Shown one piece after another: positions 1,870-19,710 of a stretch of DNA of 64,000 bases (position 1 is the first letter of the stretch; each line of letters starts with the position of its first letter). The stretch lies in NCBI GenBank assembly GCA_031272775.1, contig JAISTB010000039.1, forward strand, positions 1 to 64,000, in the 5' to 3' direction. The translations under genes and the position numbers were made by a program. The notes beneath the pieces are model-generated. The model saw only the letters and a program-made list of their open reading frames with translations, was not told the origin of the DNA and made no database searches. This stretch comes from Fusobacteriaceae bacterium (GTDB taxonomy: Bacteria > Fusobacteriota > Fusobacteriia > Fusobacteriales > Fusobacteriaceae).

Positions 1870-2007
1870 GCCAAAGTACAAAGCAAAAATGTGCCAAAGC
1901 CGATAGTGAAATTCAGCCAAAGTATAAAGTAAAATCATGCCAAAGTCTATAGTTAAATACTGCCAAAGTATAAAGTAAAATGCTGCCAAATCATAAAGTT
2001 ATATCTT
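1870..2007 (+). repeat. Six degenerate 23-bp tandem repeats upstream of the DUF4143 ATPase
   Basis: Six back-to-back units start at 1870, 1893, 1916, 1939, 1962 and 1985. Each is exactly 23 bp and begins GCCAAA. The best-conserved unit is GCCAAAGTATAAAGTAAAAT plus three variable bases. A seventh degenerate unit (GACAAACGG) starts at 2008, and its first bases belong to the -35 box of the ATPase promoter. The period is close to two DNA helical turns, so a protein could bind every unit on the same face. There are no unique spacers and no dyad within a unit, so this is not a CRISPR array. Confidence 0.8.
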
Positions 2008-2034
2008 GACAAACGGCTAAATTTGGCGTATAGT
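2006..2034 (+). promoter_or_regulatory. Promoter of the first DUF4143 ATPase
   Basis: TTGACA (2006-2011), a 17-bp spacer and TATAGT (2029-2034). The -35 box sits at the junction of the sixth and seventh 23-bp units. Transcription would start near 2041, only a few bases before the first usable start codons (GTG 2044, ATG 2047, ATG 2053). The mRNA is therefore almost leaderless. Confidence 0.65.
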
Positions 2035-2046
2035 ATAAATTGGGTG

Positions 2047-3321
2047 ATGCTCATGAGCAATAAATATTTACCAAGAATATCCGACAAAAAATTGCGTCTA
2101 TTACTTGAGGCCAAGGGCGCGGTTTTGATCGAAGGACCAAAGTGGTGCGGGAAAACCCGATCTGCCGAAGAAATCGCCGGCAGCGTTTTGTATATGCAGG
2201 ATCCGGATACGTCAAAAGCGAACATTCTGACGGCGCAATCCAAACCGTCATTGCTCTTGGACGGGAAAACGCCGAGATTGCTTGATGAATGGCAGGTCGC
2301 CCCCGAGCTCTGGAACGCCGTACGCTTTGCGGTCGACAAACGCAGACAAAGCGGGCAATTCATATTGACCGGTTCCGTAAATCCCGTAAGGACTCCTGAT
2401 ATGCATTCCGGTACGGGGCGCATCGGGCGCATGAAAATGCGGACGATGTCACTATATGAATCGGGCGATTCCACTGGGGAGATCTCCCTAAAAAAGCTTT
2501 TCGACGGCGTATCGACTATGGAAGGAAAATCGCCGGTTTCAGTGGAACAGTATGCTTTCTTGATCAATCGCGGCGGATGGCCCGCCGTGGCGGGAAAGAC
2601 AAATGAAAAAATCGTTCTGACGGTTGCGTCCGATTATCTGGAAGCGGTGACAAATGAGGATATTTCGAAGGCAGACGGAATCGAAAGAAAACCTGAACGG
2701 GTCAAAGCGTTTATGCGGGCCATTGCGCGCAATATTTCCGCGGAGGCGAAACTTGTAACGATTGCCAATGATTTGGCCGCCAACGACGAGGCGCTGTCTC
2801 CGATCACCATCGGAGAATACATTGACGCGCTGAAGAAAATATTTGTCCTTGAAGATTTGCCCGCGTGGAGCGCGAAGCTTCGCTCCAAAACGGTGATCCG
2901 CACCACGGCGAAACGGCATTTTACCGATCCGTCCATTGCGGCCGCCGCGCTACGAGCTACGCCCAAAAGGCTGCTTTCGGATTTCAACACGTTCGGCTAC
3001 CTTTTTGAATCCCTTTGCGTAAGAGACCTGCGGGTCTATGCCGAGAGCCTTGACGGAAACGTCTATCATTACCGCGATAAGAGCGGGCTGGAAGTTGACG
3101 CCGTCATTCAGCTTGCCGACGGGCGTTGGGCCGCAGCCGAAGTGAAGATGGGGATGGGGGAAATAGAGAAGGCCTGTGAGAATCTGTTGAGACTGAAAGC
3201 TTCCGTAGATACGGAAAAGATGGAAGAACCCGCTGTTTTAATGGTTCTGACGGCCACAGAATACGCGTTTCAAATGAAAAACGGGATATGGCTTGTCCCG
3301 CTGGGGTGTTTGAAGGATTAG
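2047..3321 (+). CDS. ATPase with AAA and DUF4143 domains
   Basis: About 424 residues. The N-terminal P-loop domain has Walker A GPKWCGKT (about 30-37) and Walker B LLDEW (about 78-82), then a sensor-like strand FILTGS. The C-terminal DUF4143 region ends in a nuclease-like pattern, GLEVDAVIQL followed by AAAEVKMG (about 345-369), as in restriction-endonuclease-fold domains. Proteins of this type are very common in anaerobes. Their function is largely unknown, though regulation and mobile DNA have been suggested. The open frame extends to a TTG at 2023, but that lies inside the promoter, so ATG 2047 or 2053 is preferred. No strong ribosome site is present. A second family member is encoded at 18461-19636. 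Confidence 0.85.
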   Translation: MLMSNKYLPRISDKKLRLLLEAKGAVLIEGPKWCGKTRSAEEIAGSVLYMQDPDTSKANILTAQSKPSLLLDGKTPRLLDEWQVAPELWNAVRFAVDKRRQSGQFILTGSVNPVRTPDMHSGTGRIGRMKMRTMSLYESGDSTGEISLKKLFDGVSTMEGKSPVSVEQYAFLINRGGWPAVAGKTNEKIVLTVASDYLEAVTNEDISKADGIERKPERVKAFMRAIARNISAEAKLVTIANDLAANDEALSPITIGEYIDALKKIFVLEDLPAWSAKLRSKTVIRTTAKRHFTDPSIAAAALRATPKRLLSDFNTFGYLFESLCVRDLRVYAESLDGNVYHYRDKSGLEVDAVIQLADGRWAAAEVKMGMGEIEKACENLLRLKASVDTEKMEEPAVLMVLTATEYAFQMKNGIWLVPLGCLKD

Positions 3322-3353: not shown

Positions 3354-3644
3354 TTATGCCCCCGGCTCATTTTTAAGGAGTTTCTTATAAATTTTGCTTC
3401 GGTGATCGAAATCAACGGCAACGATAGTCAATTCATCATCATGAATTTTCACAAGCAGGCGATAATCCATAATTCTGTATCGCCAAAACCCTTTCAACGC
3501 CTTGTTAAGCGGTTTTCCATGAATCCTGGGATCGTCTGTTCCGAGCAGATTTTTCTTGATGTATTGACTCAAAAGCCTTCGGACGCTTTTATCGAAGGAG
3601 AGAATCTTTTTTTGTACTTTTTCATCAAGGTAGACAGTATACAT
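3354..3644 (-). CDS. RelE/ParE-family toxin
   Basis: A 96-residue basic protein. The pattern GFWRYRIMDYRLLVKI followed by VDFDHRSKIYKK is typical of RelE-type mRNA interferases that copy the core beta sheet and C-terminal basic patch. Such toxins cleave mRNA on the ribosome until neutralised by their antitoxin. Its ATG directly follows the antitoxin stop (TAA-ATG), so translation is coupled. The gene is convergent with the DUF4143 ATPase. Confidence 0.85.
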   Translation of the reverse strand: MYTVYLDEKVQKKILSFDKSVRRLLSQYIKKNLLGTDDPRIHGKPLNKALKGFWRYRIMDYRLLVKIHDDELTIVAVDFDHRSKIYKKLLKNEPGA

Positions 3645-3869
3645 TTAAAGGTCCCACTCTTTGACCGCTTCGTCAAAAGGGACCAATTTCACGGTTCCTT
3701 TCGCTTCCCGCTCGAGATAGTCCTGGAGAACTTCCCGATCATATTCGTCCTCAATCACTTCAAAAATCATCTCTTTGATGAATTGAGAAACATTTGTTCC
3801 TTTCGTTTCAACATATTTTTTCAACATAAGTTCTTCTTCTCCGCTCAGTCTCACAGAAATTGTTGCCAT
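3645..3869 (-). CDS. RelB-like ribbon-helix-helix antitoxin (DUF6290 type)
   Basis: 74 residues from ATG 3869, which has GAGGTG six bases upstream. The longer GTG start at 3878 falls inside that ribosome site and is rejected. ATISVRLSGEEELMLKKYV is a ribbon-helix-helix DNA-binding segment. The acidic C-terminal tail should wrap the toxin, as in other antitoxins of this class. The gene is upstream of and coupled to the RelE-like toxin, and the pair probably represses its own promoter at 3898-3926. Confidence 0.85.
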   Translation of the reverse strand: MATISVRLSGEEELMLKKYVETKGTNVSQFIKEMIFEVIEDEYDREVLQDYLEREAKGTVKLVPFDEAVKEWDL

Positions 3870-3897
3870 GGGAATCACCTCATTTTCTTTTGTTTAC

Positions 3898-18460: not shown

Positions 18461-19636
18461 TTATAAAAATATCGGTACTTTTCCCAGCAAAAATGAGTCG
18501 AGTTCCGTCTCTCTGCTTCCGACGATGAGCGCGTATGCTTGCGGATACATTTTTTTAAAGGTCAAACTACCGCCGACATTCTTCACCCGGCCGCTTTTGA
18601 CTTCAATCGCTGTGGTTTGTTCCCCTTTTCTGATCACAAAATCCACCTCGTGATTCCGTTCCCGCCACCAGTAAACATCAAAACCCTCCTCCTGTCCGCG
18701 AGCCAGAAGATATGCACCGACGGCGCTTTCCACAAGCCTGCCGCGTTCGGTGGGATTATCCAGCAGACGCCTTCTGCCGGCGCCGGCGGCAAATGTCATC
18801 AAGGCTGTATTATACACGAGAAGACGCGGGGCGCCTTTCCGGATCCGGATCCTGTCGCCGGAATAATTCGTGAGTCCGGTCAACATGCCGGCTTTTCCCA
18901 AAAGCTCAAGATAATGCGCCATTGTGACGGTGTTGCCCGCGTCCTGCAGCTGCCCGAGCATTTTGGTGAATGACAATTCCTGTGCGCTGTATCCCGCGCC
19001 GAGCATGAAAAGCGAGCGCAATAACGCCGGTTTTCTTACTTCTTCCAGCATCAGGATATCTTGGGAAATCGTCGGTTCCACAATAGATGCGCCCAAATAA
19101 CGCGCCCAGCGGTCTTCATCTTTGATGAGGGACGCCGCCCCCGGATAGCCGCCGAAAAACAAAAAATCCTCGAGCGTAAATCCGAAGGCTTCCTTGCACT
19201 CCGCGAAATTCCAGTGCGGAGAGTACAGCACTTCAAATCGTCCCATCAGGGATTCCGACAGACCTTTCTGCAGCAGCAAAGCGGAGGAACCGCTAAGAAG
19301 CACTTTCAGAGGAATATGAAGCCTCGTGTCTTCATCCCAGAGCAGCTTGACATGTGACGACCATTGGCTGATTTTTTGGATTTCATCTATAATGAGGATC
19401 GCCTCTCCCGATCCGGCAAGGCTCCTTGCTTTTTCCCATTCATTTCTGAGCCATTCGGGGGAAACAAGGTTGGGGTCGTCGGCTGCGATGTAATGATATG
19501 TGGCGCCCAGTTGTTCCAACGCTTGGACAACGGCGGTCGTTTTTCCGGTTTGTCGCGGGCCGACAACGATCTGTAGAAACCGGCGGGGTTCTGACAATCT
19601 CTGGACAAGTTGCAAAACCAGTTTTCTTGCGAACAT
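18461..19636 (-). CDS. Second ATPase with AAA and DUF4143 domains
   Basis: 391 residues. Walker A GPRQTGKT (26-33), Walker B LIIDEIQK (about 81-88), a sensor strand VLLSGSSALLL, then the DUF4143 half with the nuclease-like pair HEVDFVIRKG and TAIEVKSG near residue 345-365. It belongs to a different branch from the ATPase at 2047-3321 (the Walker B is DEIQ rather than DEWQ). The start at 19636 has AGGAGG upstream. Its promoter overlaps paired TTACTC repeats that resemble the repeats of the first ATPase. Function of the family is unclear. Confidence 0.85.
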   Translation of the reverse strand: MFARKLVLQLVQRLSEPRRFLQIVVGPRQTGKTTAVVQALEQLGATYHYIAADDPNLVSPEWLRNEWEKARSLAGSGEAILIIDEIQKISQWSSHVKLLWDEDTRLHIPLKVLLSGSSALLLQKGLSESLMGRFEVLYSPHWNFAECKEAFGFTLEDFLFFGGYPGAASLIKDEDRWARYLGASIVEPTISQDILMLEEVRKPALLRSLFMLGAGYSAQELSFTKMLGQLQDAGNTVTMAHYLELLGKAGMLTGLTNYSGDRIRIRKGAPRLLVYNTALMTFAAGAGRRRLLDNPTERGRLVESAVGAYLLARGQEEGFDVYWWRERNHEVDFVIRKGEQTTAIEVKSGRVKNVGGSLTFKKMYPQAYALIVGSRETELDSFLLGKVPIFL

Positions 19637-19649
19637 GAGGGGCCTCCTT

Positions 19650-19710
19650 ACAAATTACTCGATATACTTTACTATTTACTCATTATACTGAGTAATTTGT
19701 AAAATGTCAA
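19650..19710 (-). promoter_or_regulatory. Consensus promoter overlapped by operator repeats (second DUF4143 ATPase)
   Basis: On the minus strand TTGACA (19710-19705), a 17-bp spacer and TATAAT (19687-19682): a perfect consensus. A perfect 11-bp inverted repeat, ACAAATTACTC (19650-19660) and GAGTAATTTGT (19690-19700), brackets the -10. TTACTC also recurs directly at 19655 and 19676, 21 bp apart, each followed by a TATACT-like block. Read on the gene strand the unit is AGTATAnnGAGTAA, close to AGTATAAAGTAA in the 23-bp repeats at 1870-2007. Confidence 0.7.

Follow-up and report, generated by a model that had tools for sequence, protein, structure and literature searches.

What is the function of a tandem-repeat array that runs directly into the promoter of an ATPase gene? 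We addressed this question for a gene of the DUF4143 family located on a 64,000-nucleotide stretch of contig JAISTB010000039.1 from a Fusobacteriaceae bacterium, which is referred to here as the window. A preliminary description of this locus had proposed that the array is the binding site of a protein, perhaps the ATPase itself, which either controls the gene or uses the array for recognition or insertion.

Inspection of the locus confirmed six direct repeat units of 23 bp at the positions proposed before, followed by a TTGACA-17-TATAGT promoter (Table 1). The range 1870-2034 is exact for array and promoter together, and the probable start codon follows 19 bp downstream. The seventh unit (GACAAACGG...) shares only 8-10 of its 23 bases with the other units and is therefore degenerate, as had been described, but it contains the -35 box only in part: the GACA that opens the unit is the last part of the hexamer. 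As this unit starts inside the -35 box, a protein bound to it would cover the -35 position. A feature absent from the preliminary description is the alternation of two unit types (units 1/3/5 versus units 2/4), which is the reason why a period of 46 bp (x 2.8) outscored the period of 23 bp (x 5.7) in the TRF analysis. TRF scores above 50 were obtained in the window only for the array (1863-1999) and for the repeat at the promoter of a second DUF4143-family gene, L009.

Table 1. Position of the array, the promoter and the DUF4143-family genes in the window.
Feature	Position	Strand	Basis
Six 23-bp direct repeat units, all starting with GCCAAA (1870-1892, 1893-1915, 1916-1938, 1939-1961, 1962-1984, 1985-2007)	1870..2007	+	printed units; TRF
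Seventh, degenerate unit (GACAAACGGCTAAATTTGGCGTA)	2008..2030	+	printed units
-35 hexamer TTGACA	2006..2011	+	consensus match, putative promoter
-10 hexamer TATAGT, spacer 17 bp	2029..2034	+	consensus match
DUF4143-family ATPase gene, clade I, PADLOC PDC-S01	2053..3321	+	profile matches
AAA_14 domain, Walker A GPKWCGKT, Walker B LLDEW	2116..2460	+	
Predicted winged-helix region, model residues about 185-300	2608..2955	+	modest fold scores
PD-(D/E)XK-like nuclease domain, model residues 271-421	2866..3318	+	
Second DUF4143-family gene (L009), between clades II and III in the tree	18461..19636	-	
21-bp repeat / inverted ATTACTC elements over the L009 promoter	19648..19689	-	TRF

Allowing up to three mismatches, GCCAAAGTATAAAGTA was found five times in the window (0.22 expected), every time within the array, and this count was reached in 0/100 shuffles of the window. 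Across the 2.09-Mb genome, the pattern yielded 11 matches, five of them in the array, and the reversed control pattern 29. The window array is far beyond chance, and its unit is not scattered through the genome. Among the matches listed (L037-L150), several Pontibacter genomes contained GCCAAAGTATAAAGTA at numerous sites, perhaps as a dispersed repeat; these apparently unrelated 16-mer matches were kept out of the evidence.

The likeliest start of the ATPase gene is the ATG at 2053 (in-frame alternatives: ATG 2047 and TTG 2023), and the stop is at 3321. The encoded protein scored 114.3 bits against PF13635 and 43.9 bits against PF13173 (cut-offs 28.1 and 27), a combination that we take to be of the COG1373 type. 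The PADLOC profile PDLC04790 matched residues 8-430 with an E-value of 2.6e-70 and assigns the protein to the phage-defence candidate PDC-S01. In an AlphaFold model (pLDDT 75, pTM 0.75), the winged-helix region, recognised with modest scores, is placed between the AAA+ part and the PD-(D/E)XK-like domain, whose nuclease residues D-(13)-E-x-K are encoded at about 3097-3147. Fold matches were modest overall (Z 6-7, Foldseek E about 0.001-0.01): the structure 2qen matched residues 159-300 with Z 6.4, Fur/MarR-type folds matched the winged-helix region with Z 4-5, and the C-terminal domain resembled Card1, Can2 and McrC with Z about 6. Based on this model, the predicted winged-helix region is likely the array-binding part of the protein. 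Directly after the gene, on the opposite strand (3354-3878), we observed a pair of genes for a ParE-type toxin and an antitoxin-like DUF6290 protein.

The same 2.09-Mb genome contains 17 PF13635 hits (L002-L018) on 12 contigs, an unusually high number of paralogues for its size; L010 is broken by a stop and some others are fragments. Most of these hits are adjoined by arrays or inverted repeats, with units and periods that differ between the loci. In L008, a TTGACA is present inside every repeat unit.

For a broader view, we surveyed 166 loci with DUF4143-type ATPases, spread over many bacterial families. They were drawn from the same genome and its family, from wider genome samples and plasmids, and from contigs of phage-like or viral type. 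ORFs were detected by profile and gene starts were picked by a heuristic. The array score counts ungapped self-matches at lags of 15-60 in the 200 bp upstream of the predicted start, and scores of 13 or more were classified as strong arrays. Among 273 genes of the own genome, including that of the window, the 95% and 99% quantiles of this score were 11.2 and 14.5, and the two strongest signals came from in-frame coding repeats and from the window gene itself. The former, L210 (33 bp, score 57.5), was rejected as the top control, as its repeats lie in frame within the upstream coding gene. A FastTree phylogeny resolved clades I, II, III and IV with a support of 1.0 each and clade I' with 0.58, and left L005 and L009 unplaced. 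Windows elsewhere in the same loci and dinucleotide shuffles of the same upstream regions served as controls for the lag.

As proposed in the preliminary description, related genomes were searched, and arrays were found to precede DUF4143 homologues across many phyla as well as on plasmids and phage-like contigs. The top lag was 23 or 46 bp in 41/43 loci of clade I (control windows 32/797, shuffles 36/860) and 22-23, 44 or 46 bp in 11/14 loci of clade I' (17/244 and 25/280), whereas it was 31-34 bp in 19/28 loci of clade II (35/369 and 34/560) and 39-42 bp in 35/49 loci of clade III (45/667 and 88/980); the surveyed loci are related to each other, so that these counts are not independent, and the period sets were partly chosen after the data had been seen. 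An absence of arrays in front of close homologues had been named as counter-evidence, and the 41 of 43 clade I loci speak for their presence. The expected lag was not the best one in 14/49 loci of clade III and 9/28 of clade II. Since the lag sets had been named after a first look, the periods were also learnt on the own-genome loci alone; with a tolerance of 2 bp, they predicted 39/40 of the other loci in clade I, 17/25 in clade II and 33/46 in clade III.

Strong arrays were present at 82 of the 166 loci, and 84 were without one; by period, 39 arrays belong to the 23 class, 16 to the 33 class and 25 to the 40 class, with 2 outside these classes. Mapped on the tree, the period class required 4 changes, whereas 500 shuffles of the labels required 36.2 on average and never fewer than 29. 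Judged from these sequence comparisons, the repeat period goes with the protein clade and is inherited together with the protein. A period set by the branch of the protein family suggests that each protein would bind and control its own gene.

The sequences of the units differ from gene to gene. Comparison of 47 loci of clades I and I' revealed that the similarity of the units grows with protein identity, and this link also holds among pairs with less than 55% identity (Mantel r 0.475, 0/2000 permutations). Proteins of about 50% identity are preceded by similar GCCAA-type units; these occur in the window genome and another bacterial family as well as on viral contigs and a Bacteroides plasmid. 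With a private unit sequence for each gene, paralogues of one genome would therefore not cross-regulate each other.

Clade IV had neither arrays nor a lag signal in the upstream regions of its 30 loci. Instead, a long inverted repeat was detected within the last 100 bp in 20/30 of these loci (controls 22/400), and it overlapped a sigma-70-like promoter in 14 of the 15 loci with both features called (6.9 expected). Inverted repeats were also enriched in clade III (27/49 vs 14/400 controls) and clade II (12/28 vs 24/400), but were at background in clade I (2/43 vs 10/400). Most branches thus appear to have a marked promoter, and the architecture of arrays or inverted repeats is particular to the branch. 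Based on consensus calls of the promoters, the array adjoins or overlaps the core promoter of its own gene, as expected for an operator. The -10 element was located at or past the array end in 26/31 promoter calls of clade I, but only in 6/13 calls of clade II and 10/23 of clade III, so that the array may extend over the promoter in these two clades.

Arrays at random sites unrelated to DUF4143 genes would speak against such a role, and we also searched for arrays in the reverse direction. Three GCCAA motifs at 23-bp spacing were found in 15 of 386 genomes. One genus carries such arrays before DUF4143 genes (for example L394, L398, L399, L403 and L408). Arrays without the gene were found as well (L392/L395, L393, L396, L397 and L400). 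Of these, L400 retains a C-terminal DUF4143 remnant, L396 matches L248 on both flanks, and L397 and L392 have flanks in common with L020, so that these solitary arrays look like loci that have lost the gene. At L393 (1501-1600), a window-type array precedes a hexapeptide-transferase gene, and the vicinity contains no DUF4143 gene. The remaining genomes showed single chance-like matches or the repeat of G288; in this genome, the 23-bp GCCAA pattern occurs at 56 places (reversed control 52) as a dispersed repeat unrelated to DUF4143. Four GCCAA motifs at 23-bp spacing were also searched in viral contigs, where 26/27 loci had no DUF4143 gene beside the array. Among 12 loci inspected, five viral ones (L418, L422, L431, L435 and L440) have the array within an apparent phage replication ORF, and these were therefore counted as unrelated; a Pfam scan of two such ORFs gave no match. 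The viral 23-bp GCCAA arrays resemble a convergent iteron-like pattern. Altogether, where a window-type array lacks a DUF4143 gene, it mostly appears to be what is left of such a locus.

The arrays, their position at the promoter, the clade-dependent period and the co-variation of unit and protein can be read directly from the sequences. Together with the winged-helix model, they argue for the proposal that the ATPase binds the array and controls the gene; the binding itself, as well as repression and any inducing signal, is what we infer from them. We consider it probable that each ATPase binds its own operator, with a pitch fixed within the clade, and represses the gene that encodes it. The array would be the operator of the gene that follows. 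The gene product, for which a winged-helix DNA-binding region and a PD-(D/E)XK-like nuclease domain are predicted besides the ATPase part, would occupy neighbouring repeat units in its own promoter. The spacing of 23, 31-34 or 39-42 bp, or the long inverted repeat, would be set by the packing of the protein on DNA. Bound ATPase would block RNA polymerase, with the last unit overlapping the -35 box, and the gene would be derepressed when the ATPase is diluted, sequestered or consumed, for example by foreign DNA during a defence response. The overlap between array and -35 box, the TTGACA-containing units of L008 and the -10 positions in clade I are most simply read as repression by the product.

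A different role would be that of a loading or recognition platform, on which the ATPase polymerises in order to cut, bridge or mark self, with promoter control as a by-product. The regular pitch fits an oligomer, an array of 7 or more units as in L219 exceeds the need of a simple repressor, and clade I has retained the nuclease residues (D 43/43, E 41/43 and K 42/43, next to intact Walker residues in 43/43). We nevertheless regard this role as unlikely, as the arrays remain at the promoter and overlap it and the units were not found elsewhere in the own genome. In addition, the arrays persist in clade III, where 49/49 proteins have other residues in place of the nuclease E and K (Q and mostly A/C/S), and the nuclease is thus not needed for their upkeep. 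Clade III is, judged from these replacements, probably without classical PD-(D/E)XK cutting, so the array would serve DNA binding or regulation independent of cutting. It is still less probable that another regulator binds the array, such as the MerR-type protein encoded upstream (1358-1813). The end of this gene is only 57 bp away from the array, but in the annotated examples the upstream neighbours vary (hypothetical, HTH, PTS, polymerase, Cas3, cold-shock and IS transposase genes), the period tracks the DUF4143 clade, and the spacer of 17 bp is unlike the long spacer of MerR promoters.

The proposed use of the array as an insertion site, or more generally as the end or target site of a mobile element carrying the ATPase gene, seems improbable to us. 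In its favour, members are present in 276 plasmid records, 17 hits occur in a single 2.09-Mb genome, and some arrays stand without the gene (L392, L396, L397 and L400). At the expected insertion end, however, an array at the clade period was found in only 2/41 clade I loci with enough downstream sequence, both from one genus (L240 and L260, where this second array follows the DUF4143 gene); a transposase is not linked as a rule, and the solitary arrays resemble decayed loci, with the remnant in L400 and the flanks of L396 matching L248. The least probable reading is an array of replication iterons or of a type III toxin-antitoxin RNA. The pitch of 22-23 bp is similar to that of plasmid iterons, and the viral search retrieved iteron-like arrays inside apparent replication-initiator genes of phages; direct repeats before the gene are likewise similar to toxI. 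On the other hand, many such loci exist per genome, with 17 hits on 12 contigs in the present case, and the array lies upstream of the called -35/-10 elements, whereas toxI repeats are transcribed. A CRISPR array was ruled out, as there are no spacers.

Promoter arrays are not confined to the DUF4143 family. PF01637, intended as a negative control, turned out positive: 17/26 genes had strong arrays, 15 of them with a lag of 15 bp (controls 9/395), and inverted repeats were present in 21/26 (controls 49/800). In these genes (L328-L353), a TATAAT is often located inside the 15-bp promoter repeat. PF04326 was therefore taken as a second, unrelated control family, and 6/29 of its genes had arrays (controls 18/394), which is above background but with mixed lags and without a common period; this indicates that promoter arrays are not unique to DUF4143.

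Returning to self-binding and autoregulation by the ATPase, this reading may, more tentatively, be extended to the whole AAA+/winged-helix/nuclease superfamily (DUF4143 and PF01637) as self-addressed gene-operator pairs. Oligomers with a pitch of 15, 23, 31-34 or 39-42 bp would sit in their own promoter, each gene with a private address, and the array would act as a sensor by which free protein and competing DNA set the expression of a defence nuclease. If this idea holds, the candidate DNA ligand of each PDC-S01 protein, unit as well as pitch, would be readable from the genome. The binding substrate would be known beforehand, the oligomer geometry could be predicted per clade, induction could be followed by promoter reporters, and the family would offer a natural set of protein-DNA specificity pairs. 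The window array itself is one instance of a widespread pattern, in which members of a very common, unexplained ATPase family have repeats at their promoters.

By profile, the window protein is a clear member of the PDC-S01/COG1373-type DUF4143 ATPases. PDC-S01 is reported to rank fourth in frequency among prokaryotic defence annotations, with 29,494 bacterial and 9,986 archaeal systems (PMC12988326). The open-access PMC texts consulted establish no mode of action for it, and we found no report of promoter arrays for the PDC-S01/DUF4143 family in open-access PMC articles. In Thermus thermophilus HB27, a DUF4143 gene (AAA 14) was 6.6-fold up-regulated with plasmid, but only with Argonaute (PMC4406477), which may bear on the inducibility of DUF4143 genes. 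A locus from strain HB8 (L232) showed no array.

A close parallel is offered by the archaeal-type ATPases of PF01637 (ATPase_2), which combine an AAA+ part with a winged helix, as predicted for the window protein, and carry promoter repeats, but belong to another Pfam family and have a shorter period; the structures 2qen and 2fna are presumably members of this family. ToxIN systems resemble the window locus in the tandem toxI repeats directly before the gene. These repeats are necessarily transcribed, in contrast to the DUF4143 arrays upstream of the promoter. Iterons of plasmid replication initiators, with a pitch of 22-23 bp, are similar direct repeats of about two helical turns, located upstream of an autoregulated gene for a winged-helix DNA-binding protein. 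DUF4143 loci differ from them in consisting of a solitary AAA+/nuclease gene, in being present many times per genome and in a pitch that varies by clade.
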